Shown here: positions 42,561 through 63,414 of the stretch, one piece after another
Layout: each line of letters begins with the position of its first letter
Position numbering within the stretch: the first letter of the stretch is position 1
Assembly: GCA_948567375.1 (NCBI GenBank)
Contig: OX419762.1
Span: 14,824,001-14,888,000, forward strand
From: Lunularia cruciata
Lineage: Eukaryota; Streptophyta; Marchantiopsida; Lunulariales; Lunulariaceae
Length of the DNA: 64,000 nucleotides
Direction of reading: 5' to 3'
Program-made: the position numbers and the translations under genes
Notes under the pieces: generated by a model
The model's input: only the letters and a program-made list of their open reading frames with translations
Told to the model about the DNA's origin: nothing
The model's database searches: none

Positions 42561-43409
42561 GTCTGTTTAGTCCTTAAAATGTTGAATCTTTTGTAGTCAA
42601 GACTGTCTGTTTACTCCTTAAAATGTTGAACCTTCTGTAGTCAAGACTATCAGAAGGTGACAAGGTTACGTTAGTGCTGCAATTGTGACTCCAGATTGCC
42701 ATTACCATCTTTGTGAAGTTATGTGTGTTGTAAAAAAATACTACGGACCATCCTATATCGCACAAAAAATCTATGATAAGAAGAGATGCACTCCATCGGA
42801 ATGATTGATTGGAAGGTGGAAGGATTCAATGCGTTCCAGTAGCATAGAATTTTATTCCCAAACAGTATTTGCATTCACAAATTTCACACCGAACCCCGCA
42901 AGTTTAGGATCTGTTCTCACTGCCAATTGCGACAAAACATTACGAATCAATGACTCGTACTCGAGCAAACGGCATTACAGCTCTTGCAACTGTCCCACTG
43001 GGACAGCGTACGCAAAGATCCAACTGCGATTCATACTCAAGCAAACCCACTGACAAGCTCTCGTCATTTGGACAGAGACACAGCGAGCCAACAGCAACGT
43101 CCTATTCTGGCAATCCGATTAAAAAATACTGCTTGGATGTGTTGCCTTGTGTTGCTTGAATGTGTTGCACGAATCAGTACACACTGTTTAACTCGTCCAG
43201 CTGTTAAATTTCCCTGCCCCAAGCAGAGATGAGTCTGCAACCCCACGGTAGAGATAAACTGCTTAGTTCGTACTTACTGCAGCGAAAATCTGCATAAATC
43301 TGGAACTCCTGTTCAGGACATACTAGAAATAGTAGGTGAAATTCGCTTGTAGAAACGAAGGTTTTGTTCTTACTGCTTTGATTAGTTGGTCTCCCCTCAA
43401 GGGGGAGGG

Positions 43410-43606
43410 TGGGCTGCGCCGACCAAGGAAGTAGTGCAATACCAAGGCGATGCTGGCGGAACCGAGTCAGCAAGCTGACCCTTTGGCCTCGCACCCGTGA
43501 AAGAAATTAAATTAATATCGTGAGGGTCGATGACCGTCGTATCAGATATTAAACTGATAAGAACAGATACTACACTTGATCTTAGCCAAAAGGCCGAGAA
43601 AGGTAT
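43410..43606 (-). ncRNA. U2: U2 snRNA (A1)
   Basis: Spliceosomal U2 snRNA, which pairs with the intron branch site. The minus strand starts ATACCTTTCTCGGCCTTTTG, carries the branch-site pairing GTAGTA, a TAATTTCTTTCA Sm-like site and the stem-loop IV loop TTGCACTAC, and ends GGCGCAGCCCA at 197 nt, the usual plant size. One substitution (GACGGTCATCGACCCTC) unpairs stem IIb. A promoter and a 3' hairpin (43,391-43,407) are present. Confidence 0.93.
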
Positions 43607-43631
43607 ACATTCCTGGCTACGGCCGGGGGAG

Positions 43632-43680
43632 TATGAATCGCAGATACACTCACGATCCTTGTCCGGCTTATGGGTTTACG
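43632..43680 (-). promoter_or_regulatory. U2 A1 promoter: TATA-like box and upstream element
   Basis: On the minus strand CGTAAACCCATA (43,669-43,680) lies 31 nt upstream of a TTCATA box (43,632-43,637), which is 25 nt before the U2 start. The same spacing occurs in all eight genes. Confidence 0.7.
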
Positions 43681-44225
43681 TCCTACGTCAGGGCACCTCC
43701 TTGACAGGAAATTGTTCATTGACTAGTGCTCACAAGATGTCCATGAAGCCATGAAAGCTAAGTTAGTGTGGACCATCCTAACGTAATCACTCCATTCGAT
43801 CTAGGCTTTGAGATATACAGGGCATGCTTCCAGGGAAACTGCATACCACGGACGAAGTTCGCTGTCACGACAGATTTGTTCCTTCACACGAGGAGGAGAT
43901 AAGATAATCTGCGTAGGCTGTAGGAATAAGTGCTTGGGTGTAAAACTGGCTCACATCTAGCAGCGCCACATGATGATACAGGTAGTGAACACACTAGTAC
44001 AGCACCAGGAAAATCATGTACCATTCTATATTATCGGTCAGAATTTGGAGGACTAGCCAGGAATCTACACTAGCCTTCAATAACAGGCGATATCTTTCAC
44101 CCCTTAGTTTTGGAAGATGGTTTATTCTTCAAGTTATGAAGACTGATCTGTCCGGAGATTCCAGCAGGTTTGGAGTTTGTTGAGTACGAACTTTCTCTGT
44201 TTTTGGTAAGGGACTGGAGCAGACA

Positions 44226-44385
44226 TGCTGTTTGCTTATGTGGGTCTCTTTTCTGTAAAGAAAGGGGGGCAGCAATGCTGCTGTAAATTGGGAAAACGTC
44301 GAGGCCGAGACAGCAAGCTGTTGGCCTTGCATCCGTGGGAGAAAAAAGATCACTTGATCTTATGAACCAAGAGGTAGAGCAAGAT
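44226..44385 (-). pseudogene. U2 snRNA pseudogene
   Basis: Fragments of U2 are recognisable in order on the minus strand: a decayed 5' end, AAGATCAAGTG near 44,350-44,360, then directly the 3' stem part (CAGCTTGCTGTCTCGGCCTC). The middle third, including stem II and the Sm site, is deleted. It sits inside a spacer that resembles the D-type 3' flank, not at the normal U2 position of that spacer. Confidence 0.7.
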
Positions 44386-44737
44386 TAGAAATTAGATATC
44401 TCCTGATTAAAGCCTCGGCCATGAACATTTGTTCAAGTTCGCACCTTTGCACGACGGACTACTTTGAAAGCCATTATGCTACATGAACACCAAAGCAGAT
44501 GGATTTATACCGATAGAAACTATTTGGAAAGTTGTCGACCAACTTCTCTTATGCAACCAGCAGCATGATGGAGATGAGCGCATACATGTGAGGTTTCACA
44601 AACGAGAGTGGCGATTCACTTAGTCTGCCAAACGAAGTGACAGCACTACTGTGAAGTCCAAATACATGGAGCTGTAATTCTCTGAAGCTTTTTTGGAATG
44701 CTCGTTTGTTTGCGTTGGTTCTCCCTTCGCAGAGGGT

Positions 44738-44934
44738 TGGGCTGCGTTAGCCAAGGAAGTAGTGCAAGACCAAGGCGACACTGGCGGAACCGAGACAGCA
44801 AGCTGACCCATTGGCCCCGCACCCGTGAAAGAAATTAGATTAATATCATGAGAGTCAATGACCCTCGTATCAGATATTAAACTGATAAGAACGGATACTA
44901 CACTTGATCTTAGCCAAAAGGCCGAGAAAGGTAT
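44738..44934 (-). ncRNA. U2: U2 snRNA (B1)
   Basis: Full 197-nt U2 with a consensus 5' end and GTAGTA. It differs from most copies by TATCCGTTCTTATCAG (a C for T just after the branch-site pairing region) and a G-U-tolerated change in stem IIb. The 3' hairpin is at 44,723-44,736. It is followed by the same promoter layout as the other copies. Confidence 0.93.
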
Positions 44935-44960
44935 GCTCCTCCATATGAAGTCTGGAGGAC

Positions 44961-45009
44961 TATGAAATTCGGATTGAATCCCATTTCTTGGCCGGTGTAT
45001 GGGTCTATT
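44961..45009 (-). promoter_or_regulatory. U2 B1 promoter: TATA-like box and upstream element
   Basis: AATAGACCCATA (44,998-45,009), then 31 nt, then TTCATA (44,961-44,966), 26 nt before the U2 start. Confidence 0.7.
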
Positions 45010-46026
45010 TGCTTTCCGGGTCTCTGGTCATCATGCAGTCCGCACAATCACATCATTCGTAATCGGAATAACGCTGAACTCTACTTCCAGTCTACAGTGG
45101 CGAAACTCTACCAGTTGACAAAATCCAGACGGAAGGACTGACAATGGTGCGAATGTGGGTGATGTATCAATGATGGTAAATACACAAGTACAGTCGGGGT
45201 GGGACGATGAAGTTGAGCGGTTTAGTATATGGACAGGCACGCAAGAAGAAACTTTCAGGTTCGTATGTATGCAAATCCTAAAAGGAAAAAGCTTTAGGGT
45301 GTGCTCTGGAGGGGGATAGGCTCAGCCAGCAATTCAAAGTGAAGTTCATGGTCAATGCGTCCAGAGGTTTGCGAAACAGCTCAGCCAACTCGATTGATCG
45401 CTTCCTTGCCAGACGGAGCCGCCTGATAAATAATCCAAGAATCGGATTTGCCAGGGCATATCAATAAAGAGACCAAGTAGATGTCCGCTGGCTCAAAACG
45501 GAGGATGTGTGAGCAGGAAACGAAATTGATGGAGGCTTGAGGAAGACATTACAAGGGAACGGAAGTCGATCCTGCTCACGAATCATAAGCTTGATCTATT
45601 TCCTGTCGCACACAGACCTCAATTCCTTCATAAGCTATCTAGGAGATTTTGGTCCGGTTTGATTCTCCTCACCTCCACCACCATGATAAACGACGCATTG
45701 ACCATAAGCGTGATTTTATATTCTGTGACACACAGAATTTGATCCCCTTCATGAACTACTTACGAGATTTTGGTGCAGTTTGGTATTCCTAACTTCCAGG
45801 TGCATGATAAACGACGCACTGGTTCTGTTTGTACAAACTCCTAGATGGAGAAGATTTCTCAGGATTTACGAGATGAACATCTTTGCTTCATCGGGAACTC
45901 CACATAGCAGTGAGTACTTCGAGGAACTGACCTGCAATTCAAGTTGAGAGGATTACTCCAGACTAACGTGACGAACCTGTGATTCGACGGGAAGTCCACG
46001 GCAGTGACACGAGGGACTGATCTGCG

Positions 46027-46288
46027 TGTTATGTTTGGCTTGCTATAAGTGACTTGCCTGATCAAGAGCAAGAGCAAAACTTGACTGATGGAAACTCTTT
46101 ACAGTATCATGCGATATATATTCAGTCACTTCTAAGGTTGAGTATTAAAGTGACTAGATATCTTGAGTGGTCACTACTCATGAAGTCACGCAGGTCTATA
46201 TTCAGGAGTTTAGACAGTGACAGAGTGACTATCCCTGTGTTTGTATATATATACATATGTGCAATGAAAATAAAGGGTTCGAAGGCTA
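46027..46288 (+). repeat. Truncated 5' LTR of the Copia element
   Basis: It matches the first part of the 3' LTR (49,765 onward) up to AAAGG-TTCGAAGGCT and then changes abruptly into late gag sequence. Confidence 0.85.
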
Positions 46289-46311
46289 TATGGGAAGGAT
46301 GATATAAACTG

Positions 46312-49300
46312 TTGGAGGTCTTTTCAGCATTATTGTCCAATGAGATGCGAAAAAGACCCAACCAAGAAAAGACAAATTCAGATGCTCTATTTATCAGAGG
46401 AACGACAAGAGAGAGAGAGATCAGATCAGGAGTAAATCAAGATCCAAGTCTAGAACTGGAGGTTTCAAAGGCAAGTGCTGGATTTGTGGGAAGGTTGGAC
46501 ATTTCAAGAAAGATTGTAACAACAAGAGGCTTGAGTCCAACAAGGATAAAGGTCAACTTTCAGATCAAGCAAGCATTGCTGAGTCATCTGGAGTTGTGGA
46601 TGATGTTCTATGTGTTACCCAAGACAAAGATCAATTTGAGGAGTCATGGATATTGGACTCAGGTTGCTCTTACCATATGTATCCAAATAAGGAATGGTTT
46701 CATGAGTACAAATCATTCAATGGAGGATCTGTAATAATGGAGAACAACATGGCTTGTAAAGCTATTGGCATTGGTACAATACGCATTAAGATGTTTGATG
46801 GTATTGTGAGGACTCTTGCTGATGTGAGGCATGTTCCTGAGTTAAGGAAGAATTTGATATCACTAGGCACTTTGGACTCAAATGGTTGGAGGTGGGGAAC
46901 AGAAAATGGAACACTCAAGGTATCAAAAGGAGCATTGGTTGTAATGAAGGTCAAGAAGATAGGAAACCTTTATGAGCTTGTTGGAGAGACCATCACTGGA
47001 GGAGTGGCAAGTACTATTTCTGAAAATGAAGATCCCAAAGATCTTACTCAGTTATGGCACCTCCGGTTGGGGCATATGAGTGAAAGGGGTCTAAGTGAAT
47101 TGTCCAAGCAACAACTTCTGAAGGCCCTTAAAAGTTGTAAGTTAAAAGTCTGTGAGCATTGTGTAATAGGAAAGCAACGGAGGGTAAGCTTTTCCACAGG
47201 AGTTCATTGCACAAAGGGAATTTTAGACTAGGTGCATTTTGATGTTTGGGGCCCTGCACCTGTAGCTTCAAAATCTGGAGCATTATATTTTGTGTCTTTG
47301 GTTGATGATTACTCTAGGAGAGTATGGGTCTACACCATGAAGCAAAAATCAGAGGTCTTCTCTATCTTTAAACAATGGAAGGTGATGATGGAGAAACAAA
47401 CTGAAAGGAAAGTGAAATGTTTGAGGTCTGATAATGTTGGAGAATACAAATCTGGAGAGTTTGATAGATATTGTAAGAGTGAAGGGATAATCCATCACTT
47501 TACCATACCGAGTACTCCTCAACAAAATGGTGTGGCAGAGCGGATAAATCGTACACTCTTGAAGAAAGCAAGAAGTATGTTAAGCAACGCTGGATTGGAG
47601 AAGAGTTTTTGAGCAGAAGCTATAATTACGGCTTGTCATTTGGTAAACCTTTCTCCCTCTACTGCTATTGAGTGTAAGACACCTATGGAAAAATGGACAG
47701 GTAGGCATGTTGATTACTCTTCACTTAGAGTATTTGGATGCATAGCTTATGTTCATATTCAACAAGAACAAAGGACAAAGTTAGACCCCAAATCTAGAAA
47801 ATGTATATTCTTGGGATATGAGAAGGATACAAAGGGATATAGATTGTGGGATCCAGAAAGGTGTTGTCTTGTTGTGAGTGTGGATGTAGTTTTTGATGAG
47901 ACTAGTACAATGAAGACTATTACTATAGCAAAAGAAAAGAAAAAACAAATTCAGTCAGATTTTGTTAAGATAGATATTGATACTGGAAATGAAGACATTT
48001 CACCTCTTGTAGATCTACCAAGTGAACCATTAGAAGAGCAAAGCCTAGAGTGATTCATGAACATAGGTATCCAAATAGGGATAGAAGGCCTCCAAAGAGA
48101 TTTGATGATTCTTTTGTAGCTTATGCTCTTCTTACGGAGAATGGTGAGCCTTCTTCATATGAAGAGGCAATGCAAGATCAAGAATGTCAAAAATAGCATT
48201 GTGCAATGGAAGAGGAGATGAAGTCTTTGGCCAAGAACCAAACTTGTAGACTTGAAAAATTGCCTATGGGAAAGAAGGCAATTGGTTGCAGATGGATATT
48301 TAGGAAGAAGGAAGGACTTCCAAAATCAGGTGGAGATAGATACAAAGCAAGGCTTGTAGCAAAGGGTTACAGCCAAAAAGAAGGTATTGACTTCAATGAG
48401 ATTTTTTCACCAGTGGTAAAAATCTCTTCAATTTGTGCACTATTGGCAATAGTTGCATTGCATAACTTGGAGTTGGAGCAACTAGATGTTACAACTGCTT
48501 TTTTACATGGAGAATTGGAGGAGGAGATTTACATGCATCAACCTGAAGGTTTTGTGGTACCAAGGAACCAGAACTTGGTTTGCAGGTTACAAAAGTCTTT
48601 ATATGGACTAAAGCAAAGTCCAAGACTTTGGTACATGAAATTTGATACTTTCATGTTGAAGCAAGGATATAACAGAAGTGAATCAGATTGTTTTTTGTAC
48701 CTCAAGAAGCTACATGGACCTAGAGTATTTGATTTAATCATCTTGGTACTATATGTGGATGATATGCTGATTGCTACAAAGGATATGGTTGAGGTGGAGA
48801 AATTGAAAGCACAACTTGGTAAGGAATTTGATATGAAGGACTTGGGTTCTTCAAAGAGGGTACTTGGGATTGAAATCCATCGGGACAGGAGCAAGGGAAA
48901 GTTATGGATATCTCAAAGGAGATATTTGGAAAAATTACTTGCTCGGTTTGGCATGGAGAAAGCAAAACCAGTAAACACTCCAATGGCAAGTCATTTCAGG
49001 ATATCATTGGAGCAATGTCCATCAAATGAGGAGGAGAGAAAAGTAATGTCCAACATTCCTTATGCTAGTGCTGTTGGGAGTTTAATGTATGCTATGGTCT
49101 GCACTAGACCAGACATCTCATATGCTGTGAGCATGGTGAGTAGATACATGGCAAATCTGGGGAAACAACATTGGGAAGTTGTGAAGTGGATACTTCGTTA
49201 CTTGAAAGGGACTATAAATATTGGCATTAACTTTGATGTGGAGAAGGAACAAGAAGGAGGAATTACAGGGTATGGAGATTCTGATTTGGCCGGAGACTTG

Positions 49301-49735
49301 GATAAGAGAAGGTCTACAACAGGATTTGCTTTTACACTTGTTGGTGGTGCAGTAAGTTGGAAGTCTACTCTCCAATCTACTGTTGCTCTTTCCACTACAG
49401 AGGCAGAGTATATGGCAACAACCGAGGCTGCCAAGGAGGCAATATGGCTACAAAGATTAGCCAAGGATATAGGACTCCCTAATATGAAGTCCACACTCTT
49501 TTGTGATAGCCAAAGCGCTATTCACTTGGCAAAGAATCAAGTATATCATTCAAGGACAAAGCATATTGATGTGAGACATCATTTTATCAGGGAAGCTGTG
49601 ACAAATGGTGAAATCAATCTGCAAAAGATTGGCACAGAGGTAAACGCAGCTGATATGTTGACTAAACCTGTTCCTGTTGAGAAATTCAAGTTATGCATGA
49701 ACTTGATTAACGTTCAATGTTGCTCTTTGGGATGA
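46312..49735 (+). pseudogene. Copia gag (C-terminus)-pol
   Basis: In order: late gag (DVFSALLSNEMRKRP-like); zinc knuckle CWICGKVGHFKKDC near 46,475; protease WILDSGCSYHM near 46,650; integrase zinc finger WHLRLGHMSERGL...CEHCVIGKQ (about 47,055-47,180); the integrase D-D-E core (HFDVWGPA, LVDDYSRRVWVY, CLRSDNVGEY, TPQQNGVAERINRT); the GKP-type region; then one clean 509-codon frame 48,206-49,735 with RT (KARLVAKGYSQKEGIDF, TAFLHGELEEEIYM, VLYVDDMLIA) and RNase H (SDLAGDLDKRRSTTGF, TEAEYMA, KHIDVRHHFIREAV). Three nonsense changes are visible (47,229; 47,611; about 48,196) plus a frameshift near 48,050. The intact RT/RNase H suggests a fairly recent insertion. Confidence 0.92.
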
Positions 49736-49764
49736 TAAGGTGGATACAAGCAAAAGGTGGAGTT

Positions 49765-50214
49765 TGTTATGTTTGGCTTGCTATAAGTGACTTGCCTGAT
49801 CAAGAGCAAGAGCAAAACTTGACTGATGGAAACTCTTTACAGTATCATGCGGATATATATTCAGTCACTTCTAAGGTTGAGTATCAAAGTGACTAGATAT
49901 CTTGAGTGGTCAATACTCATGAAGTCACGCAGGTCTATATTCAGGAGTTTAGACAGTGACAGAGTGACTATCCCTGTGTTTGTATATATTGGTATACCCC
50001 TGTGTATATATTGTATATCCCTGTGTTTGTATATATATACATATGTGCAATGGATATAAAGGGTCAAAGGCTGGTGTGAGCCTGTTTCAGCCGTGGAGGT
50101 AGCTTCCGGGACAGGGAGTGAACCACGTTATTTACTGTTAGTCCTCTGATTTATGTTTAATGGGTCTTATGATGTGCTATTGCGAGAGGTCCCTTGGGAC
50201 TGTATTTTCTAACA
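49765..50214 (+). repeat. 3' LTR of the Copia element
   Basis: 450 bp, TG...CA ends. It contains a short tandem expansion of a CCCTGTGT-TATATA motif (49,970-50,040) absent from the other LTR copies, which explains its greater length. Confidence 0.9.
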
Positions 50215-50239
50215 CTGAGTTCATACCATATGAGTGGAC

Positions 50240-50642
50240 TGTTAGAAAATACAGTCCCAAGGGACCTCTCGCAATAGCACATCATAAGGCCCATTAAACA
50301 TAAATCAGAGGACTAACAGGAAATAACGTGGTTCACTCCCTGTCCCGGAAGCTACCTCCACGGCTGAAACATGCTCACACCAGCCTTTGAACCTTTATTT
50401 CCATTGTACATATGTCTATATATACAAACACGGGATAGTCACTCTGTCCTCTGTCTAAACTCCTGAATATAGACCTGCGTGACTTCATGAGTATTGACCA
50501 CTCAAGATATCTAGTCACTTTAATACTCAACCTTAGAAGTGACTGAATATATATCCGCATGATACTGTAAGGAGTTTCCATCAGTCAAGTTTTGCTCTTG
50601 CTCTTGATCAGGCAAGTCACTTATAGCAAGCCAAACATAACA
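50240..50642 (-). repeat. Solo Copia LTR, inverted
   Basis: Reverse complement of the 3' LTR next door (403 bp), flanked by perfect TGGAC copies (50,235-50,239 and 50,643-50,647). It is therefore an independent insertion reduced to a solo LTR, 25 bp from the end of the Copia element. Confidence 0.93.
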
Positions 50643-51444
50643 TGGACCTGTGCAGAACGTGTATGTGTATGCAGGTGCTTATTGAATTTCGATGATGAGG
50701 CCCCATGAAGGAGCTTTCCAAAGATTGCTTTTAACTGTTTGTATGTCCCGCGCACGGTATTCTTTAGTAAAAGGCGGAAGAGCAGTTCGCTGTAAGCTGG
50801 ACACTCGGTCGTTCCAACCATGAATAAGTTCCGGGGTATGTCAGTTTCAAGCGGATTTACTGCAAGTTCTTTATCTATGGGTTTAGTGGCCAGCTCACCT
50901 TCCTTCACCAATGGACTGTGTTCAGGGCAAGCTGTCAAAACTGAATCACGTCATTCGATCTAGGTTTCGAGATATACAGTGCATGCTTTCAGTAGGATTA
51001 CACGGCACGGTACTAACAAGGTCATTTTCAGCAACAAGATGTGTTGCTCCAAGAGGTGAAGCTAGGATTATCTGCGTAGTGTTTGAGATCATTTGTTTAG
51101 GTGCAAAACTGGTTCATATGTACCAACATGATGATATAAGTTGAGATATCATCGATACATGTAGTGAACACACTACTACGGTGCCAGGAAATTCATCCAC
51201 CGTTAGACATTACTGGTCAGAATTTGGAGGACTCGCCAGGCATCTACACAAGGCTTCCCCAGCTGGCAAAACCATTCACGCCTTGGTTCCGGAAGATGGT
51301 TTGTTCTTCAAGCTATAAAGGCTGTGCTGTGCTCTGCAAATGAAGCGACAGAAATATGTGAAAGCCAAAGCCATGGACCTGTAATTCTCTAGAATTTCAC
51401 TGCAATGCTGCTTTGTTTGCGTTGGGTCTCCTTGCAGGAAAGGA

Positions 51445-51641
51445 TGGGCTGCGCCTGCCGTGGAGGTGGTGCAAGACCAAGGCGACACTGGCGGAACCGA
51501 GACAGCAAGCTGCCCCGCTGGCCCCGCACCCGTGATAGAAATTAGATTAATATCGTGAGGGTCGGTGACCCTCGTACCAGATATTAAACTGATAAGAACA
51601 GATACTACACTTGATCTTAGCCAAAAGGCCGAGAAAGGTAT
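51445..51641 (-). ncRNA. U2: U2 snRNA (C1)
   Basis: Full 197-nt U2 with a consensus 5' half. The C type differs in the 3' domain: the stem-loop IV loop reads TTGCACCACC instead of TTGCACTACT, and the stem is changed with it (GTGG...CTGCC side). The stem II start is GGTACG. The 3' hairpin is at 51,430-51,443. Confidence 0.92.
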
Positions 51642-51666
51642 ACCTCGACGGTGAAGTCGGGAGGAC

Positions 51667-51715
51667 TATGAAACTCGGATTGCATCCCGTTTCTTATCCG
51701 TTGTATGGGTCTATC
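51667..51715 (-). promoter_or_regulatory. U2 C1 promoter: TATA-like box and upstream element
   Basis: GATAGACCCATA (51,704-51,715), then 31 nt, then TTCATA (51,667-51,672), 25 nt before the U2 start. Confidence 0.7.
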
Positions 51716-53658
51716 TGCTTTCCGGGTCGCTGTTCATCATGCACAGCTTACAATCATGTCATTTGTAATCGCGATTTCTGGAACTCTACTTCCAGCCTAC
51801 AGTAGCGAAACTTTCGATCTGAACGCGTTCTAGTACTTTACAGAATCGAGACGGAAGACTGGCAGTGATGAGAATGTGGTGATGTATGAACGGTGATAAA
51901 TAGGCCGCGGGCAAGACAAGTACAGTCGGGGTGTGACGATGACGTTAAACGGTTAAATGTATGGATGTAATGTAAAGGCACTCAAGAAGAAACTTTGAGG
52001 CTCGAATGTCAAAATCTCCCAAAAGGGGAGACTTATAACGCGCTATGGAGGGGGATAGGCTCAGTCAGCAATTCTAGGTCAATGCGACCAGAGTTTGCAG
52101 AGCAGCTCAGCCGAACGTACCCAGAATCATACACGCTAGGTCATATCAATACGGAGCACAAGTAGATGTCCGCTGGCTCAAAACGAAGAATGTCTGAAAG
52201 AAACAAATAAACAAAGGAGGATGTGTGATCAGGAATGGAAATTGATGGAAACTTCGAGAAATCACATTACACGGGAACGAAAGTCGATGTTGCTTTAGAA
52301 ACATACGCTTGATCTTATTTCCTGTCAAGCACAGGACTTGATCCCCTTCATGCCCTATTCAGTTCGATTATCATAACCTCCAGTTCACGACGCACTGATT
52401 CGGTCTGCACAATCCAAGTTGAAGAGATTACTCAGGATCTACGTGATTTCAGTGATTCATGGGGAAGTCAACGTACCTATCAGTACTATGCGTACTATGA
52501 GAAACTGGCCTCCATTCACTCCATATGAATAGACCCTGTCCAGGCCGTGTGCATGTTGGTAAATGTTATTCTCTGTTAGGTATATCGTCGACTTAATGTC
52601 TTCAGTGGTCAGCCGATGCTTCTTTAACTCGGTGGTAAGGCCCCGTAACGGTCTCTCCAAAGACTCGGATAAACCGTTTGTGTGTCCGTCACACGATATT
52701 CTTTGGTAAAAGGCGAAAGAATAGTTCGCTATGTGCTGGACGCACGGTAATGCAGAGGTAGAAAACTTCGAGGTGCCTTGATTTCAAGAAGAATGTACTG
52801 ACGTACTTCGTCTAAGGGTTTAATCGCTTGGACATTTTCACCAATCGACTGTTTGTTCTGGGAGAACGTACAAACTGATTACTTCCTTCCATCTAGATTC
52901 TGAGAAATACAGTGCATGCTTTGAGTGTAACTACATGACACGGACGAAGTTCACGGTCAACGACAAAATTTGCTCCTTCAAGAGGTGGAGATAGGACCAT
53001 CTGCTCGGGTGTAAAACTGGCTCACGTAACGTCAAATGACGGTCAATGTAGTGAACACTATTACAGAACCAGGACGTTCATCCACTTTGCTAAATTACTC
53101 GTCAGAACTTGAAGAACTCGCCAGGCGTCTACTTCACAAGGCTGTCCGTAACTGGCATCCTATTTCGCCCCTTGGTTCTGGAAGTTTCAACTATGAAGGC
53201 TATCCTGTGTCCGGGGACTTCAGTTGGTTTGGAGGTTGTATTGAGTATAACGTCCTCACTTTTGGTAGGAGACTCGAACAGATACAGTAGATAAGAAAAT
53301 TGACATCTCCTGATTATAGCCTTCGCTCTGGACATTGATTCGAGTTCCGACGTTGGGGGAACAGACAACTTCGATAGCCTTGATTCGGTAGGAACAAAGA
53401 CGCAGATGGAATTCCAAGGACTGAAACAATCTGCGAAGTTGTCCATCCACATCCCATTTCCACACACAGCATCGAGGAGACACATGCGGACACATCTAAT
53501 GCTTCCGGTACGCTGCGGGGATCTTTCAAGTTTTACGCAAACAGACCAACAATAACAGGTCAGTACTGCTTCGAAACCTCTATGTTCAGCTAAAATGCTA
53601 GAGTTAAAGGCAGATGACTTGCTGTTTGGTTTACACTGGGTCTCTATTTTCAGAGAGA

Positions 53659-53855
53659 TGGGCTGCGCCAGCCAAGGAAGTAGTGCGAGACCAAGGCGAC
53701 GCTGGCAGAACCGAGACAGCAAGCTGCCCCGTTGGCCCCGCACCCGTGAAAGAAATTAGATTAATATCATGAAGGTCGATGACCCTCGTATCAGATATTA
53801 AACTGATAAGAACAGATACTACACTTGATCTTAGCCAAAAGGCCGAGAAAGGTAT
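53659..53855 (-). ncRNA. U2: U2 snRNA (D1)
   Basis: Full 197-nt U2 with a consensus 5' half, GTAGTA, Sm site and TTGCACTACTT-type loop IV (here CTCGCACTAC, one change). Stem IIb has one G-U pair. The 3' hairpin TCTCT/AGAGA is at 53,641-53,656. Confidence 0.93.
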
Positions 53856-53880
53856 ATTTCGGATGGGGAAACCGGCGGGT

Positions 53881-53929
53881 TATGAGACTTGGATTCAGTA
53901 GCAATTGTTGTCAGGGTTATGGGTTTATG
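53881..53929 (-). promoter_or_regulatory. U2 D1 promoter: TATA-like box and upstream element
   Basis: CATAAACCCATA (53,918-53,929), then 31 nt, then CTCATA (53,881-53,886), 25 nt before the U2 start. Confidence 0.7.
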
Positions 53930-54373
53930 CTCAACATGTGTCAATGGAGCCAGTTTGATTGGTACGAGTACACTAGAACTGACATTGCGCTGAATGTTGC
54001 AAGAGCGGAACACCTGATTGTTTGGGCCTAAAGGCAAGGGACTTTACCTGCTATGAGCTGGACGACATTCATTCTAATCGTCTTTGCATTGCTGAGAGAG
54101 AAGGTTGAAATTCCAACCGCCCTCACTTGTACTTAGATAGTAGCCAGAGTTGAGTTCGATGAGATAAACTGATCTGCTCTGATCAAACCGCAGAAGGCGC
54201 CATAATTGCTGAACAGTTCCTGGAACAAATCTGGACAGTTGTAACTAGTTGTGATACGTAATAAAATAAAGGAATATGTGAGAGGACAACTTAGAGATAT
54301 TCTAGAGTATCATAATCTGACAGACAAGATATAGGTTAGATAGAACATGTGCATCAACGGACTTTAACCGTAC

Positions 54374-55577
54374 CTGCTTCACAAAGGCAACCAAACGTAA
54401 GTAAATGTTGGATGTCCGGGTTTCAGGTTGGCACAATGTGAAGTGATGCGCATCCACCGTTGTGAATCCACCACTGTGAGTACCATATCTTGCGGATTTT
54501 TCCGGCACAACCATATCATAAAAACCATCCTGTACATACACGTCGTCAAATGTGAGTGCCTATGACTTTTAACATGTCGCTTTCAATAGACATACTGACC
54601 TGCTCTTGATCATTCAATAATATTTGGATGCGTGGAGCTCGGCCAAGTTAAGAGGAAATCGGAGAAAGTTTATCAGCATCTGTTGTTGATACACTTCGAT
54701 CCAACTACAGATGGAGCTCTCGGTTGACACAACGCATTCACAGCTTGCAGACAATGTAACTTAGATTTGAGTTTTTGGCATGAAAATGGGGTTATGAGCC
54801 ATCCGAGGATTCTGATGAGGACAAGAAGGTACTCACGGAGTTATCAAGGCTTATTACCTGGGAACAGCTCCCTGAAGAACCTCCTGTCAGGATGAACTCT
54901 AACCACGACGGTCTTTGTTTTGCCCATGCCAAGCATGTTGCCTTGGTCTCTCCAACTCCACCAACAACCCATTCGTAGTGCAGTCGCAAATTCTCCAGGT
55001 TTCGGTCTAGTCTTACAGCGTGTGGGCTCAGTAATTTAAAGAACTCCATTAAAGGACTAGGATTTTGCATGGTTATTCCATCAGGTTCTGCCATTCCTCT
55101 ATGTGGAGTCCCATAGAAGAATAAACCTTTGAAGCTCCTTAAGAAACACTCCATCTTCACTTTTCCTTGTGGCAGCCTTGACAAATTCATGCTCTGATTG
55201 ACATGCAAACACAACTGCTTGATCAAAAGTCCACCGACCCCGTGACCAACAAATATCACTGGGCAAGCAGTCGACATTCCCACCCCGGCGTGATCTAGAA
55301 GATCACGGGCCAGATTTTCCGCTGCATTAAGAAGGTCAAGTCTACCACTATCATCTGTGGTTATCATAGAAGAATCATATCTAATAGTTAAAATTCTAGC
55401 CGATGAAAATCGCTCCCGAAGCCAGGTCTTTGGCCAAATTTCCTGTGATGCCAAATCTCCCGACTTCCAAGTAGAAAGGTGGATCTCAGGTTCTAGACTG
55501 TCAAATTGAAGCCCATGGAAAAATAGAATTTCCAATTTTATTTTCTCCTTATCAGGACTGTATAGTTCGTATACCAT
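54374..55577 (-). CDS. SERAC1-like alpha/beta-hydrolase with Gly at the nucleophile site
   Basis: Two exons on the minus strand: 55,586-54,837 (ATG at 55,577, 247 codons, GTGAGT donor) and 54,529-54,374 (52 codons, GTACGG donor), both phase 0. The order is that of plant SERAC1-like hydrolases, also found as the N-terminal domain of bryophyte hydrolase-type NLR proteins: FFHGLQFD, WPKTWL, ARILTIRYDS, VIFVGHGVGGLLIK, FFYGTPHRG and, in exon 2, SARYG and HHFTLCQPE with the expected catalytic His. The nucleophile motif G-x-S-x-G reads G-H-G-V-G, with Gly at residue 113, so hydrolase activity is doubtful. Exon 2 ends in a donor site, but only U2 repeat sequence follows, so the 3' part of the gene is missing or not recognised. 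An upstream coding exon is possible. The gene fills the gap between the two B-C-D blocks. Confidence 0.75.
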
Positions 55578-56213
55578 GTCGGTCACCTGAACATCGTACA
55601 AACTTACAAAACGGTTAGATGATCCCAAAATCCAATCAAATTAATCTATTTCAATAGAAGCAACGTCGACGATAACATGTTCATCTGACGACCTAGAGCT
55701 AAACCATAACCAGATGGGCTTATCGAATGAAAGATCATTCCACTACAGTCAACTGATTCCGATGAAAACATAACATGGACACTGTAAAATGTGTAGAATC
55801 AAATCGTAACTTGATTGCAGCAGCTTATCGTGATTAATTGCGACAAAGACCCTTAATTTCTGTAACAGACAAATGCAGAAGAGCGAATTACCTGCTAAGC
55901 AGCTCCTGTGGTCGTCGTGTTTCCGCATATCAGGCTCAGGTCTGTGGACAATCACGCAGTAAGCTCACACCGAAACCTTGGAGAAACTTGGTATTCTCAC
56001 GTTTCCAACTAATACAACCGGATGACGTCCACAAATGTCCACCATTTCGGAATATATACATGTACGGTTTCACAAACGGGAGTGGCGATTCACTTAGTCT
56101 GCCAAACGAAGTGACAGCACTACTGGGAAGCCCAAACACATGGAGCTGTCGTTTTCTAAGGCTTTATTGGAATGCTCGTTTGTTTGCGTTGGGTCTCCCG
56201 TTGCAAGGGAAGA

Positions 56214-56410
56214 TGGGCTGCGCCAGCGAAGGAAGTAGTGCAAGAGCAAGGCGACACTGGCGGAACCGAGACAGCAAGCTGACCCGTTGGCCCCGCACCC
56301 GTGAAAGAAATTAGATTAATAACATGAGAGTCGATGACCCTCGTATCAGATATTAAACTGATAAGAACAGATACTACATTTGATCTTAGCCAGAAGGCCG
56401 GGAAAGGTAT
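56214..56410 (-). ncRNA. U2: U2 snRNA variant (B2)
   Basis: Full-length 197-nt U2, but with three changes in the normally invariant 5' domain: TTTCCCGG for TTTCTCGG, CCTTCTGG for CCTTTTGG, and AAATGTAG for AAGTGTAG, next to the branch-site pairing region. There are also changes in stem IIb. It may be a non-functional variant despite an intact promoter and 3' hairpin (56,196-56,210). Confidence 0.88.
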
Positions 56411-56436
56411 ACTCCACCATATGAAGTCTGGAGGAC

Positions 56437-56485
56437 TATGAAACTCGGATTGAATCCCATTTCTTGTCCGGTGTATGGGTCTATT
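56437..56485 (-). promoter_or_regulatory. U2 B2 promoter: TATA-like box and upstream element
   Basis: AATAGACCCATA (56,474-56,485), then 31 nt, then TTCATA (56,437-56,442), 26 nt before the U2 start. Confidence 0.7.
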
Positions 56486-58326
56486 TGCTTTCTGGGTCGC
56501 TGGCCATCAACGCAGTCCGCACAATCACATCATTCGTAATCGGAATAACGCTGAACTCTACTTCCAGTCTACAGTAGCGAAACTCTACCAGTTGACAAAA
56601 TCGAGACGGAAGGACTGATAATGGTGCATATGTGGATGATGTATCAATGATGGTAGATACACAAGTACAGTCGGGGTGGGACGATGAAGTTGAGCGGTTT
56701 AGTGTATGGACAGGCACGCAAGAAGAAACTTTCAGGTTCGTATGTGTGGAAATCCTAAATGGAAAAGGCTTTCGGGCGTGCTGCTCTGGAGGGGGATAGG
56801 CTCAGCCAGCAATTCAAAGTGAAGTTCATGGTCAATGCGTCCAGAGGTTAGCGAAACAGTTCAGCCAACTCGATTGCTCGCTTCCTTGCCAGACGGAGCA
56901 TCCTTTTAAATAATCCAAGAATTGGATTTGCCAGGGCATATCAATAAAGAGACCAAGTAGATGTTCGCTGGCTGAAAACGGAGGATGTGTGCGCAGGTTG
57001 ATGGAAGCTTGAGGAAGACATTACAAGGGAACGGAAGTCGATCCTGCTTACGAACCATAAGCTTGATCTATTTCCTGTCGCACACAGAACTCAATTCCTT
57101 AATAAGCTATCTAGGAGATTTGGGTCCGGTTTGATTCTCCTCACCTCCACCACCATGATAAACGACGCACTGACCATAAGCGTGATTTTATTTTTCTGTG
57201 ACACACAGAATTTGATCCCCTTCATGAACTACTTACGAGATTTTGGTCCAGTTTGGTATTCCTAACTTCCAGGTGCATGATAGACGACGCACTGATTCTG
57301 TTTGTACAAACTCCTAGTTGGAGAAGATTTCTCAGGATTTACGAGATGAACATCTGTGGTTCATCGGGAACTCCACATAGCAGGGAGTACTTCGAGGAAC
57401 TGATCTGCAATTCAAGTTGAGAGGATTAGTCAAGACTAACGTGACGAACCAGTGATTCGACGGGAAGTCCACGGCAGTGACACGAGGGACTGGTCTACGT
57501 TCACACCATTTGAGTTCCTGTGCAGAACGCGTATGTGTATGCAGGTGCTTATTGAATCTCGATGATGAGGCCCCATGAAGGAGCTTTCCAAAGATTGCTT
57601 TAAAATGTTTGTATGTCCCGCGCACGGTATTCTTTAGTGAAAGGCGAAAGTTTAGTTCGACGTAAGCTGGACACCCGGTCGTTGCAGCCATTAATAAGTT
57701 CCGGGGTATCTTAGTTTCAAGCGGATTTACTGCAAGTTCTTTATCTATGGGTTTAATGGCCAGCTCACCTTCCTTCACCAATGGACTGTGTTCAGGGCAA
57801 GCTGTCCAAACTGAATCACGTCATTCGATCTAGGTTTCGAGATATACAGTGCATGCCTTCAGTAGGACTTACACGGCACGGTACTAACAAGGTCATTTTC
57901 AGCAACAAGATGTGTTCCTCCAAGAGGTGAAGTTAGGATTATCTGCGTAGTGTGTGAGATCATTTAGGTGCAAAACTGGTTCATATGTACCAACATGATG
58001 ATATAAGATGACATATCATCATATGATACATGTAGTGAACACACTACTACGGTACCAGCAAATTCATCCACCGTTCGACATTACTGGTCAGAATTTGGAG
58101 GATTCGCCAGGTTTCCCCTACTACACAAGGCTTCCCCAGCTGGCAAAACCATTCACGCCTTGGTTCCGGAAGATGGTTTGTTCTTCAAGCTATGAAGGCT
58201 GTGCTGTGCTGTGCTCTGCAAATGAAGCGACAGAAATATGTGAAAGCCAAAGCTATGGACCTGTAATTCTCTAGAATTTCACTGCAATGCTGCTTTGTTT
58301 GCGTTGGGTCTCCTTGCAGTAAAGGA

Positions 58327-58523
58327 TGGGCTGCGCCTGCCGTGGAGGTGGTGCAAGACCAAGGCGACACTGGCGGAACCGAGACAGCAAGCTGCCTCGT
58401 TGGCCCCGCACCCGTGAAAGAAATTAGATTAATATCGTGAGGGTCGATGACCCTCGTACCAGATATTAAACTGATAAGAACAGATACTACACTTGTTCTT
58501 AGCCAAAAGGCCGAGAAAGGTAT
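58327..58523 (-). ncRNA. U2: U2 snRNA variant (C2)
   Basis: Full-length 197-nt U2 sharing the C-type stem-loop IV changes with C1. One extra substitution turns AAGATCAAGTG into AAGAACAAGTG, in the segment that pairs with U6 (helix I). The 3' hairpin CCTT/AAGG is at 58,312-58,325. Confidence 0.9.
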
Positions 58524-58549
58524 ACTTCAGACGGGGAAGTCGAGAGGAC

Positions 58550-58598
58550 TATGAAACTCGGATTGCATCCCGTTTCTTATCCGGTGTATGGGTCTATC
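58550..58598 (-). promoter_or_regulatory. U2 C2 promoter: TATA-like box and upstream element
   Basis: GATAGACCCATA (58,587-58,598), then 31 nt, then TTCATA (58,550-58,555), 26 nt before the U2 start. Confidence 0.7.
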
Positions 58599-60532
58599 TG
58601 CTTTCCGGGTCGCTGTTCATCATGCACAGCTTACAATCATGTCATTTGTAATCGCGATTTCGTGGAACTCACTTCCAGCCTACGGTAGCGAAACTTTCGA
58701 TCTGAACGCGTTCTAGTAGTTGACAGAATCAAGACGGAAGGATTGGCAGTGATGAGAATGTGGTGAGGTATGAACGGTGATAAATAGGCCGCGGGTAAGA
58801 CAAGTACAAGTCGGGGTGTGACTATGAAGTTCAGCGGTTAAATCTATGGATAGGCACTCAAGAAGAAAATTTGAGGCTGAATGTCAAAATCTCCCAAAAG
58901 GGGAGACTCCCAAAAGGGGAGACTTATAACGCGCTATGGAGGGGGATAGGCTCAGTCAGCAATTCTAGGTCAATGCGACCAGAGTTTGCAGAGCAGCTCA
59001 GCCGAACGTACCCAGAATCATACACGCTAGGTCATATCAATACGGAGCACAAGTAGATGTCCGCTGGCTCAAAACGACGACTGTCTGAAAGAAACAAATA
59101 AACAAAGGAGGATGTGTGATCAGGATTGGAAATTGATGGGAACTTCGAGAAATCACATTACAGGGGAACGAAAGTCGATGTTGCTTTAGAAACATTCGCT
59201 TGATCTTTTTTCCTGTCACGCACAGGACCTGATCCCCTTCATGTCCTATTCAGTTTGATTATCATAACCTCCAGCTCACGACGCACTGATTCTGTCTGCA
59301 CAATCCAGGTTGAACAGATTACTCAGGATTACGTGATTTCAGTGATTCATGGGGAAGTCAACGTACCTATCAGTACTATGAGAACTGGCGTCCATTCACT
59401 CTATATAATACACCCTGTCCAGGCCGTGTGCATGTTGGTAGATGTTATTCTCTGTTAGGTATATCGTCGACTCAATGTCTTTGGTGGTCAGCCGATGCTT
59501 CTTTAACTCGTTGGTAAGGCCCCGTAACGGTCTCTCCAAAGACTCGGATAAACCGTTTGTGTGTCCGTCACACGATATTCTTTGGTAAAAGGCGAAAGAA
59601 TAGTTCGCTATGTGCTGGACGCACGGTAATGCAGAGGTAGAAAATTTCGAGTTGCCTTGATTTTAAAAAGAATGAAATGACGTACTTCGTCTATGGGTTT
59701 CATCGCTTGGACATTTTCACCAATCGACTGTTTGTTCTGGGAGAACGTACAAACTGAATACTTCCTTCGATCTAGATTCTGAGAAATACAGTGCATGCTT
59801 TGAGTGGAACTACATGACACGGACGAAGTTCACAGTGAACGACAAAATTTGTTCCTTCAAGAGGTGAAGATAGGATCATCTGCTCGGGTGTAAAACTGGC
59901 TCACATAACAACGTCAAATGACGGTCAATGTAGTGAACACTCTATTACAGAACCAGGACGTTCATCCACTTTGCTATATTACTCGTCAGAACTTGAGGAA
60001 CTCGCCAGGCGTCTACTACACAAGGCTGTCCGTAACTGGAATCCTATTTCGCCCCTTGGTTCTGGAAAAAGTTCCAAGTTTCAACTATGAAGGCTATCCT
60101 GTGTCCGGGAACTTCAGTTGGTTTGGAGGTTGTGTTGAGTATAACGTGCTCTTTTTTGGTAGGAGACTGGAACAGATACCGTAGATAAGAAAATAGACAT
60201 CTCCTTATTATAGCCTTCGCTCTGCACATTGATTCAAGTTCCGTCGTTGGAAGAACAGACAACTTGGATAGCCATGATTCGATAGGAACAAAGAAGCAGA
60301 TGGAATTCCTAGGACTGAAGCCATCTGCGAAGTTGTCCATCCGCATCCCATTCCACACGCACCATCGGGGAGACGCATGCGGACACATCTAATGCTTCCG
60401 GAACGCTCCGGGGATTTTTCAAGTGTTACGCAAACAGACCAACACTCGCAGATCAGAACAGCTTCTAAACCTCTAGAGATAATGGCAGTAGACATACTAT
60501 TTGGTTTACTCTGGGTCTCTATTTGCAGAGAG

Positions 60533-60729
60533 TGGGCTGCGCCAGCCAAGGAAGTAGTGCAAGACCAAGGCGACACCGGCGGAAACGCGACAGCAAGCTG
60601 CCACTTTGGCCCCGCACCCGTGAAAGAAATTAGATTAATATCGTGAGGGTCGATGACCCTCGTATCAGATATTAAACTGATAAGAACAGATACTACACTT
60701 GATCTTAGCCAAAAGGCCGAGAAAGGTAT
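60533..60729 (-). ncRNA. U2: U2 snRNA (D2)
   Basis: Full-length 197-nt U2 with a fully consensus 5' half, a perfectly paired stem IIb and TTGCACTACTT loop IV. Minor changes lie in stem III. The 3' hairpin TCTCT/AGAGA is at 60,516-60,531. Confidence 0.94.
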
Positions 60730-60755
60730 GGTTCTCAAAAGGGAAACCGGCGGCT

Positions 60756-60804
60756 TATGGCACTTGGATTCAGTAGCAATTGGTGTCAGGGTTATGGGTT
60801 TATG
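60756..60804 (-). promoter_or_regulatory. U2 D2 promoter: TATA-like box and upstream element
   Basis: CATAAACCCATA (60,793-60,804), then 31 nt, then a weaker GCCATA box (60,756-60,761), 26 nt before the U2 start. Confidence 0.65.
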
Positions 60805-61115
60805 CTCAACGTGTGTCAATGGAGCCAGTTTGATTGGTACGAGTACACTAGAACTGACATTGCGCTGAATGTTGCAAGAGCGGAACACCTGATTGTTTGG
60901 GCCTAAAGGCAAGGGACTTTACCTGCTATGAGCTGGACGATATTCATTCTAATCGTCTTTGCATTGCTGAGAGAGAAGATTGAAATTCCAACCGCCCTCA
61001 CTTGTACTTAGATCGTAGCCAGAGTTGAGTTCGATGAGAATAAACTGATCTGCTCTGATCAAACCGCAAAAGGCGCCATAATTGCTGAACAGTTCCTGGA
61101 ACAAATCTGGACAGT

Positions 61116-62396
61116 ACAGAACATGGTCAAATGGAGACTCCGTGTCCGATAGCTGCTTGAAACATACGAGTTCAAGTTTAGCGATCGTGGAGGATAATTA
61201 AGGCTTCAGGATAAGAGGATGCTCCGTGATGTTGCCCCCTGCGCCGCAAATTTGATATCATGACAGCATGTTTTACACAGTTGGAACCGATTTCCAGATT
61301 TGCTTAGTAGAGCCGAGCTGCTGTCTCTCCACTCATGATTTGCGCAGAGAGCGAGAGTTCGTGTCCTGTGCCCTATTTCCTCAAGGAGTAAGAGCTCCTG
61401 CACTTACGTGCTCAACTTACTTCTCAGGTTCGAAACGGGCAAATGAAGCTCAAGACACAGTCGGCTCTGCTGTGCTCCCATCCATATTTACACATGATTA
61501 AATGCACTGGGAATTCCACTATGTGAGTCTCGACCCATCATTGAAGGGAAGTAACGAAGTAGCGCGACGACGATTGCATCAAGCCCCGAGTACTATATCT
61601 AAAAAATGCTGTACCTCTACAATTCTTCAACATGGCACAGACTGCTGCACAGGGAATCAATTGATATAGATATTTACCGTCCTATGCGGCCAAATCTGGT
61701 GTAAATCAGAGTAATTGATACCTGAAATTCTCCATCTGACCAATGGTCGTGCCATCTAGACGGCTCCTCAGTATCACCTACATTAGTTCAAACACATACT
61801 TCTCGTAGAAGGTCTAAACACCCGACATATGTTGTCATCTGATGGCAACGACCGGCAAATTGCACAATCAATCTTCTGCTATTGGATCCAAGACTATTAA
61901 GTAGACTGTGGTACATGTCTCGGTATTCACACTTAATTTACCTTATGGTGACGGAAAAATTTGGCTTCAGGCGGTGGTGCCGAAAGGACTTTCCAGGATT
62001 GGACTCATTGTTAGCGAAACGATTTTTCTTCAGTTTCTGACGATCCAGAAAGTTCAGCCCGACATCCATCTTTGTGTATGTTGGTGGCGTCCCAGCGAAG
62101 GGACTTTCCAAAGATTGAGATAAACCGCTTCTGTGTCCCGCACACGGTATTCTTTAGTAAAAGGCGAAAGAATAGTTCGCTTTGGGCTGAACACACGGTT
62201 GATGAGTAGGGGAGTCTTTCTGTAAGTATATATACGTCCCGGTAAAGTACGCAGAGACACTTGGTCTATGGTTTTAACGGTCTTCGACGAGGTCACTAAT
62301 TAGGTCTAAGAACCGTGGTAAGGTCATGCCACAGTTCCCTGTTCGTTCACTCCTAGGGTGTAGTCAAGAAAATCACGACGGGGACGAACTTTCATG
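61116..62396. other. Spacer between the D2 and A2 units
   Basis: Most of it has no recognisable content. Around 62,105-62,200 it carries the conserved spacer module (GGACTTTCCAAAGATTG and CACGGTATTCTTTAGTAAAA) also present near 50,716, 52,654, 57,586 and 59,536. No U2 copy or transposon was seen. Confidence 0.4.
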
Positions 62397-63217
62397 AGTG
62401 CTGCAACTGTGATTCCAGACTGCCGTTACCGTCTCTACCAAGTCAGATGTGTTGCAGAATAATACTACAGACCGTTGCAGATTGCTCAAAGATCTGTGAT
62501 AAGAAGAGATGCAACCTACCGATACACATGAAAAGTGGGAGGATCCAAAGCATTCCAGTACAGAGTTTATATTCCCAACAGAATGAAAAAGTACTGCCAC
62601 CACAAATTTCACACCCTGCCCCAGCAAGTTTAGGGGGTTGTACTCACTGCTTACTTGAACAATCCACTGCGAATCAGTGACTCATACTCGAGCGAACGGC
62701 ATTACAGCTCTTGCAATTGGGACCGAGTATGCAACGATCTAACTGCGACCAATTATTCATACTCGAGGAAACCCCATTACAGGTCCGCAATTGGGACAAA
62801 GCCGCAACTATGGAACTACATAGTCCTATACAAACTGGATATGCTTCCGGCTCACTAATTCCAACCTCAAGGGACGGTAAGGGCCATGAACACTTCAGTG
62901 CTCCCAACTCGACATAATCCCCGTCAATATTGGTATTGGCATTGTGCGGGAAAACTTTCTTACGACAAAGATACCTTAATCAGTTCAGCCATCGATGTCA
63001 CGTGTAGCGCTACTTAACTTAGCACGACTCAATACAAACTGATTAACTCGTAAAGCTGTTGAATATCCCTGCCCCAAGCAGAGTTTAGTCTGCAAAATAT
63101 CGGTAGCGAATTAGTGCTTGATTCGTAATTATTCCAGCAGAACTCCGACAGGCATCGCTGTTTAGGAGTATTTTAACATCCTGCTTTGATTAATTGGTCT
63201 CCCCTCGAAGGGGAAGA

Positions 63218-63414
63218 TGGGCTGCGCCGGCCAAGGAAGTAGTGCAATACCTAGGCGACGCTGGCGGGACCGAATCAGCAAGCTGATCCTTTGGCCCCGC
63301 ACCCGTGAGAGAAATTAGATTAATATCGTGAGGGTCGATGACCCTCGTATCAGATATTAAACTGATAAGAACAGATACTACACTTGATCTTAGCCAAAAG
63401 GCCGAGAAAGGTAT
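63218..63414 (-). ncRNA. U2: U2 snRNA (A2)
   Basis: Full-length 197-nt U2 with a consensus 5' half and a perfectly paired stem IIb, unlike A1. There are small changes in stems III and IV (CGCCTAGGTATTGC). The 3' hairpin CCCC/GGGG is at 63,201-63,213. Confidence 0.94.

Follow-up and report, generated by a model that had tools for sequence, protein, structure and literature searches.

We analysed a 64-kb window of the genome of Lunularia cruciata (contig OX419762.1, here C12, positions 14,824,001-14,888,000; positions below without a contig are those of the window) and found that its right-hand part carries genes for the small nuclear RNAs (snRNAs) U2 and U5, all on one strand. We consider it highly probable that these genes form a plant snRNA array in which U2 and U5 largely alternate and are separately promoted, and which has grown by duplication of units, of a segment and of whole arrays, with birth and death of its members. 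An earlier note on this DNA had described an array of U2 genes alone; that description was rejected, since Rfam model RF00020 places five same-strand U5 genes between the U2 copies.

U2 and U5 genes alternate on one strand

Searching the window with Rfam model RF00004 at its gathering score (46 bits) returned exactly eight U2 copies. They lie between 43409 and 63414, each on the minus strand, 198 nt long and full length (model positions 1-192), with 134-171 bits and E values of 4e-27 to 5e-36. Neither U2 nor U5 was found at gathering threshold in positions 1-43408. The number and strand of the copies are those of the earlier note, which had given them 197 nt and a first start at 43410 in place of 198 nt and 43409. 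Spacer alignments reproduced the order of types that it had proposed, A-psi-B-C-D-gene-B-C-D-A, and blastn of the window identified its pseudogene as a 46-nt U2 remnant. The copies are as follows:

63217..63414, minus strand: U2 type A, top-scoring copy (Rfam RF00004, 171 bits), upstream element at -71
60532..60729, minus strand: U2 type D (RF00004, 156.5 bits)
58326..58523, minus strand: U2 type C (RF00004, 150.6 bits), sole window copy with A, not T, at nt 28
56213..56410, minus strand: U2 type B (RF00004, 134.1 bits), lowest score, several changes in the 5' half, possibly decaying
53658..53855, minus strand: U2 type D (RF00004, 157.6 bits)
51444..51641, minus strand: U2 type C (RF00004, 152.1 bits)
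44737..44934, minus strand: U2 type B (RF00004, 151.2 bits)
43409..43606, minus strand: U2 type A, left end of the array (RF00004, 155.6 bits)
44305..44350, minus strand: U2 remnant, 46 nt (blastn ~76% to U2 nt 95-145, best E 1.9e-5)

In pairs, the U2 gene bodies are 89.9-97.5% identical. The GUAGUA stretch of branch-site pairing was invariant in all 17 U2 copies aligned, eight of them from the window, and across 45 Rfam pairs 90.0% of cells in the consensus stems were paired (3' stem, 75%), compared with 32-43% in a sliding control. Covariation in these stems was weak: its score was reached by 14 of 500 shuffles, and its count of pairs with two-sided changes by 216 of 500.

Five U5 genes (RF00020, gathering score 40 bits) scoring 61-86 bits are interspersed with the U2 genes on the same strand:

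62087..62201, minus strand: U5, top score of the window, clear TATA box (Rfam RF00020, 86.4 bits)
59517..59629, minus strand: U5, identical to 52638-52750 (RF00020, 76.2 bits; 0 of 113 positions different)
57568..57681, minus strand: U5 with a changed conserved loop, CTTTCAC (RF00020, 61.2 bits; 10 of 114 positions different from its duplicate)
52638..52750, minus strand: U5 (RF00020, 76.2 bits)
50698..50811, minus strand: U5 (RF00020, 66.4 bits)

Their pairwise identity ranges from 73.5 to 100%. The conserved U5 loop reads GCCUUUUAC in four of the five copies and GCCTTTCAC in 57568, a variant that is probably decaying. A permissive Rfam scan of 42-64 kb (E up to 1) revealed no further snRNA; besides the genes listed, it gave only two microRNA families below cut-off, inside the palindrome of the retroelement described below.

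The usual Sm site is AUUUUUG. The Sm-site-like stretches of these snRNAs have a C inside the U tract: AATTTCTTTC in most U2 copies (AATTTCTCTC in 63217 and AATTTCTATC in 51444), AATCTTTGG in most U5 copies and AATTTCTG in all five U4 genes shown.

Read in ascending coordinates, the order is U2(A) at 43409, the remnant, U2(B) at 44737, a retroelement, U5 at 50698, U2(C) at 51444, U5 at 52638, U2(D) at 53658, an open reading frame (ORF) at 54792-55640, U2(B) at 56213, U5 at 57568, U2(C) at 58326, U5 at 59517, U2(D) at 60532, U5 at 62087 and U2(A) at 63217. U2 and U5 thus alternate except at two U2-to-U2 junctions, and the starts of neighbouring genes lie ~0.6-6 kb apart, the longest distance being the one that spans the retroelement. 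A blastn self comparison showed that a five-gene segment, U2-U5-U2-U5-U2, is present twice with 92.5-93.3% identity, its left copy being split by the retroelement, whose two long terminal repeats (LTRs; 46027-46250 and 49765-49989) are 98.7% identical:

44582..54239 (44582-46027 + 50647-54239), unstranded: left copy of the duplicated segment, split by the retroelement (blastn self comparison)
56056..61115 (56056-57500 + 57517-61115), unstranded: right copy of the duplicated segment (blastn self comparison)
46028..50642, unstranded: Copia-type LTR retroelement inserted in the left segment copy (LTRs; RVT_2, Pol_BBD, gag_pre-integrs, rve)

Similarity between spacers of different unit types is older and amounts to ~66-77% in this comparison, some rows of which include gene bodies.

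The array extends past the window and has relatives on the same contig

To the right of the window we found a U5 at C12:14,889,002, a diverged U2 at 14,892,119 (97 bits), a U5 at 14,893,590 (50 bits) and a U2 at ~14,894,718, so that the whole array holds 10 U2 and 7 U5 genes in 27.5 kb and ends at ~C12:14,894,900. As far as 14,904,000 no further U2 or U5 reached the gathering score, a search that a copy with an N stretch would escape, and a 36-nt U2 pattern gave none there either.

The assembly comprises 565.8 Mb, ~558 Mb of it in eight large contigs, and the genome-wide snRNA counts that follow (U2, U5, U4, U6 and U1) are lower bounds. The Rfam U2 search scored 46 of 18,692 candidates; among the 42 matches listed (39 over cut-off), 33 are on C12 and nine elsewhere. 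A 45-nt U2 pattern had at least 16 hits, all on C12. Both searches missed four of the eight window copies, likely because 65-nt stretches of those copies read N in the genome copy. The 36-nt pattern, taken from the unaffected part and allowing up to 3 mismatches, recovered all eight window copies and at least 32 loci: 29 on C12, two on C8 and one on C10 (among them C8:61,446,627 and C10:52,339,551). Its reversed control had no match in the genome, and the pattern misses diverged copies such as those off C12 in the Rfam listing (nine of 42). C12 makes up 10.6% of the assembly; 29 of 32 loci on it gives p ~2e-25 if loci are treated as independent, which they are not.

The 29 listed C12 loci of this pattern fall into nine in the array of the window and 20 at 35.93-37.01 Mb. 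The earlier note had guessed that the window's array might be a main U2 source of the genome; the counts support this guess for C12 as a whole rather than for that array alone. For U5, 34 of the 42 matches listed are on C12, and there are well-scoring single genes on C2, C6 and C11. Only 2 of 31 listed U4 matches and 1 of 48 listed U6 matches are on C12, and 18 of 27 listed U1 matches are on contig C2. Judging from these counts, the array and its sister arrays appear to contain the majority of the U2 genes of the plant, and they probably supply most of its U2 RNA and part of its U5 RNA.

As a separate observation, nine minus-strand U1 genes lie within 38 kb at C2:8860917-8898994, a same-strand array.

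The related arrays are at 35.9-37.1 Mb of C12. Counting weak ones, 44 U2 places are listed on C12. A U5 lies no more than 3 kb away at 33 of them, and at 32 of the 33 the nearest U5 shares the strand of the U2. The array at 35.925 Mb repeats the gene order of the window with similar spacing (U2 at 35,925,526 to U2 at 35,937,023), and its spacers, with gene bodies masked, match those of the window at ~79-94% in the best-matching types (best five rows per locus). It has no retroelement at the matching place, where the two flanking spacers in locus L004 are separated by 196 nt that hold just a U5. Off C12 the picture is different: at seven of the nine U2 loci listed there (L014, L015, L020, L025, L026, L028 and L030; 82-112 bits) we found no U5 at gathering threshold within ~1.5 kb and no similarity of spacers to the array, and C8 and C10, which hold three of the pattern-found U2 loci, have none of the 42 listed U5 matches. 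However dispersed, the U5 loci L062 (C2) and L070 (C11) have upstream sequence in common with U5 gene 62087, and single units therefore appear to have been moved by DNA duplication.

We also noticed two U2-U5 groups ~170.4 kb apart at C12:36.66-36.88 Mb (L010-L013) whose identity is 99.6-99.8% at two places, with 3.2 kb compared at each, and that may be a recent duplication or an assembly duplicate.

Spacer homology shows the course of duplication behind the array. Its starting point was a repeat unit of ~2 kb with one U2 and one U5 gene; single units, the five-gene segment and, along the same chromosome, whole arrays have been duplicated.

Promoters appear plant-type in layout, with a drifted upstream element

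In plants, the canonical upstream sequence element (USE) of snRNA genes lies ~70 nt upstream and reads RTCCCACATCG. It is given as RTCCACATCG in PMC545797, according to which all 14 Arabidopsis U5 genes have it. We looked for both forms at -90 to -45 of 33 chosen promoters, namely the 8 U2 and 5 U5 genes of the window, 7 further U5, 5 U4 and 8 U6, the best-scoring U4 and U6 being used and weak loci excluded. Unlike in Arabidopsis, the element was not found in these promoters. The 11-nt form was within 3 mismatches in none of the 33, and the 10-nt form was within 3 mismatches in three and within 2 in none, against 326 and 45 of 1650 shuffles. In the window as a whole there were 16 matches with up to 2 mismatches vs 20.5 expected, and the canonical USE was rejected.

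In its place, a AAACCCATA-like element stands near -72 of U2, U5 and the best U4 genes, with a weaker match nearer the start in U6. With up to 1 mismatch it was present in 24 of the 33 promoters, compared with 14-23 of 1650 shuffles, although the motif was derived from the window genes and their own match is not independent. By class these were 8/8 U2, 11/12 U5, 4/5 U4 and 1/8 U6; with up to 2 mismatches five of the eight U6 promoters matched, a level of match that 178 of 1650 shuffles also attained. A broader set of 44 promoters, without U6 and with diverged U2 and U4, had the element in 30. All 13 window genes (8 U2 and 5 U5) carry it at -71 to -74 with up to 1 mismatch, as in these two:

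63477..63485, minus strand: upstream element AAACCCATA at -71 of type A U2 63217 (promoter scan)
62267..62275, minus strand: upstream element AAAACCATA at -74 of U5 62087 (promoter scan)
62229..62234, minus strand: TATA box TATATA at -33 of U5 62087 (promoter scan)

The element starts at -69 to -75 in U2, U5 and U4 genes. In U6 its start is at -65 to -67 for seven of eight genes; the eighth (L084) has GAGACCATA at -65, though its best scan match is elsewhere. Clear TATA boxes near -30 occur in U5 62087, most dispersed U5 genes and some U4 genes. The gap between element and TATA is 30-32 nt in all seven further U5 and in four of the five U4 genes, and 26-27 nt in the four U6 genes, of eight, that have a TATA at -30/-31. 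In plants, the spacing of USE and TATA is as a rule ~10 nt shorter in U6 than in genes transcribed by RNA polymerase II (Pol II); the shorter U6 gap follows the direction of this Pol II/Pol III rule, yet by ~5 nt instead of ~10. The position of the element and the direction of the gap difference together suggest that the U2, U5, U4 and U6 genes are plant-type in promoter layout, with a USE that has drifted. Each gene of the array has its own upstream element and is probably a separate Pol II unit. In work on telomerase RNAs, genes in various plants were located with the help of USE sequences specific to the species (PMC12133305).

Signals on the 3' side

Besides the USE, a plant snRNA 3' box has been described and defined as CA(N)3-10AGTNNAA (PMC5079582). 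Within 70 nt we found it in two of the eight U2 and two of the five U5 genes of the window, and in none of 20 other genes, eight of which are U6. A CACC or CACAA-type stretch begins within ~10 nt of the annotated 3' end in the majority of the U5 and U4 genes examined. On the 3' side of U2 a hairpin of ~15-19 nt comes first, typically followed by ACC:

63199..63215, minus strand: hairpin directly downstream of type A U2 63217; similar ones follow most U2 copies

In 18 of 26 U2 copies the fold of the hairpin region was better than that of shuffles at an uncorrected p<0.05; the copies are related and do not make 26 independent tests. The 18 include six of the eight in the window and four of six off C12, one of the folding copies, the off-C12 locus L028, having its stem at another place. 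When 18 of the 26 copies, chosen for fit, were aligned by hand, several pairs of the arms showed two-sided changes (TA to CG). The 3' ends of the array RNAs are probably formed at a box-like signal just downstream.

Constraint and decay among the copies

We then compared the divergence of duplicated genes with that of their surroundings. First, divergence is 5.6% in the type A U2 pair vs 18.6% in its flanks (p=5e-5), and 0 of 113 positions in the U5 pair 52638/59517 vs 4.7% in the spacers (p=0.009). Second, the type C U2 pair is intermediate (2.5% vs 4.7% in spacers, p=0.2). Third, changes in the A, C and D U2 pairs avoid the 5' part of the gene, with 1 of 27 within nt 1-70 (p=1e-4), a test that excludes the B pair (4 of 12 there) and uses a cut at 70 picked post hoc.

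Several observations speak against the favoured reading of the array. Constraint since the segment duplication is not seen in the type B U2 pair (6.1% vs 5.5% in spacers), the type D U2 pair (5.1% vs 4.7%) or the U5 pair 50698/57568 (8.8% vs 4.7%). In none of the six pairs has the promoter (-1 to -80) diverged significantly less than the spacers, and the promoter (13.8%, p=0.002) and 3' flank (16%, p=0.003) of type D have diverged more. Because these pairs are at spacer divergence and the promoters unconstrained, several copies of the array may be dead. In addition, seven of the eight U2 promoters of the window have only a weak TATA-like CATA near -30, and a clear TATA box is absent from four of the five window U5 genes. 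The dispersed U5 genes on C2, C6 and C11 score well and have good TATA boxes, which means that the main U5 source could lie outside the arrays, and one C8 U2 locus is within 1 mismatch of the type A sequence over the pattern.

These observations feed the most serious alternative, that the array is mostly a graveyard in which one or two genes are active (U2 type A 63217 and U5 62087), the others being pseudogenes that segmental duplication has carried along. It gains further from the changes of copies 56213, 58326 and 57568 in otherwise conserved regions, and from 62087 being the only window U5 with a clear TATA box and 63217 the U2 with the top score. We nevertheless judge it to be less probable than not, if by no means far-fetched: U2 bodies remain far more alike than the spacers of different unit types, all 13 window genes retain the upstream element, one U5 pair is identical over 113 nt, and the A, C and D pairs have hardly changed in nt 1-70, with the limits on that count given above. 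Two further alternatives fared much worse. A homogeneous tandem array like human RNU2, under concerted evolution, would account for many same-strand U2 copies in a row, but it is very improbable and was rejected by the self comparison, because unit spacers differ by ~23-34% between types and the copies have private changes, only the duplicated segment being similar, and U5 genes intervene. Slightly less credible still is a false duplication made in assembly, for which the nearly identical groups ~170 kb apart elsewhere on C12 could be cited: the window segments differ by ~5-7%, one of them is split by the retroelement, and the spacing pattern recurs 21 Mb away, so that the multi-copy, one-strand U2 array of the earlier note can be taken as real and on chromosome-scale sequence.

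A birth-and-death process in which some copies decay, above all 56213 and 57568, agrees with the pattern of divergence, and not all eight U2 copies look equally functional. Under the favoured reading of a duplicating U2-U5 array, birth and death would prevail over strong homogenisation, with constraint on the type A pair of U2 and on one pair of U5, and with types B and D of U2 and the remaining U5 pair diverging at the rate of the spacers since the segment duplication.

Other features of the region

At window positions 49765-50642 a palindrome carrying an inverted third LTR comes after the LTR element, and 50165-50289 is MIR5512-like there, under the cut-off of that family. The minus-strand ORF between the segments (54792-55640, 282 amino acids) is at most alpha/beta-hydrolase-like (Abhydrolase_6, E 0.2, below cut-off), and another on the minus strand at 15761-19840 (1359 amino acids) has no Pfam match at E up to 1. 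No transfer RNA gene was found in the 64-kb window. A gene for plant signal recognition particle RNA (RF01855, 136 bits) lies at C12:14900065-14900357, ~5 kb past the last U2 of the array.

Comparison with known U2 arrays and meaning

The human RNU2 locus, which the earlier note had named as an example of animal U2 arrays, is a homogeneous array of U2-only units. It resembles the Lunularia array in having several same-strand U2 genes together and differs from it, since the latter is heterogeneous and alternates with U5. Given this alternation, the closest parallels are not RNU2 but the U2-U5 arrays of fishes and the U2-17/U5-10 pair of Arabidopsis.

Linked U2-U5 arrays have been described from Plectorhinchus, Moronidae, Engraulidae and Oreochromis; the linkage is described as usual among the fishes investigated, and it is also reported from Drosophila (PMC3464664). 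As in Lunularia, U2 and U5 share one tandem array and each has its own promoter element; in the fishes each also has a 3' box, and the Plectorhinchus array occupies one chromosomal site (PMC3464664). In Plectorhinchus, however, the units are homogeneous and ~1 kb long, and the available part of the report states that no variants or pseudogenes were observed (PMC3464664), whereas the Lunularia array has ~2-kb units, diverged spacers, seemingly decaying copies and several arrays on one chromosome. It also differs from fish arrays in its apparently plant-type promoter layout, and the two kinds of array are likely to be of independent origin.

Arabidopsis has multi-copy families of 18 U2 and 14 U5 genes with one U2-U5 cluster, U2-17/U5-10, in which, as here, a plant U2 gene adjoins a U5 gene (PMC545797). 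There, it is a single pair less than 200 nt apart (PMC545797), compared with 10 U2 and 7 U5 genes in one array plus sister arrays in Lunularia. U2 arrays outside animals are also found in Phytophthora, where they are tandem and associated with Utopia retrotransposons; U5 is not mentioned in the available part of that report (PMC4640811). In the literature on plant snRNA arrays, U2-U5 linkage, the USE and U2 3' ends we found no multi-copy plant U2-U5 array, subscription journals being largely outside our reach. The Lunularia array is a larger plant variant of known U2-U5 linkage.

We can outline a more detailed picture, which we regard as unlikely to hold in all its parts. In it, the snRNA system of this lineage would have been reorganised: a linked unit of U2 and U5 would have been amplified on one chromosome, U2, U4 and U5 (and more loosely U6) would share the lineage-specific element AAACCCATA, the Sm U tract would contain a C, and an extra 3' stem-loop would take mature U2 ~15-20 nt beyond the Rfam end.

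The linkage of U2 and U5 in fishes, in Drosophila and in a large plant array suggests that it recurs, perhaps in the service of co-regulation or a shared nuclear location. Since spacers are diverged and copies have private variants, the RNAs of most genes should be distinguishable, and dosage and decay within an snRNA family would be testable in Lunularia. The common upstream element, in turn, would provide a handle on how snRNA promoters drift while their layout is retained.

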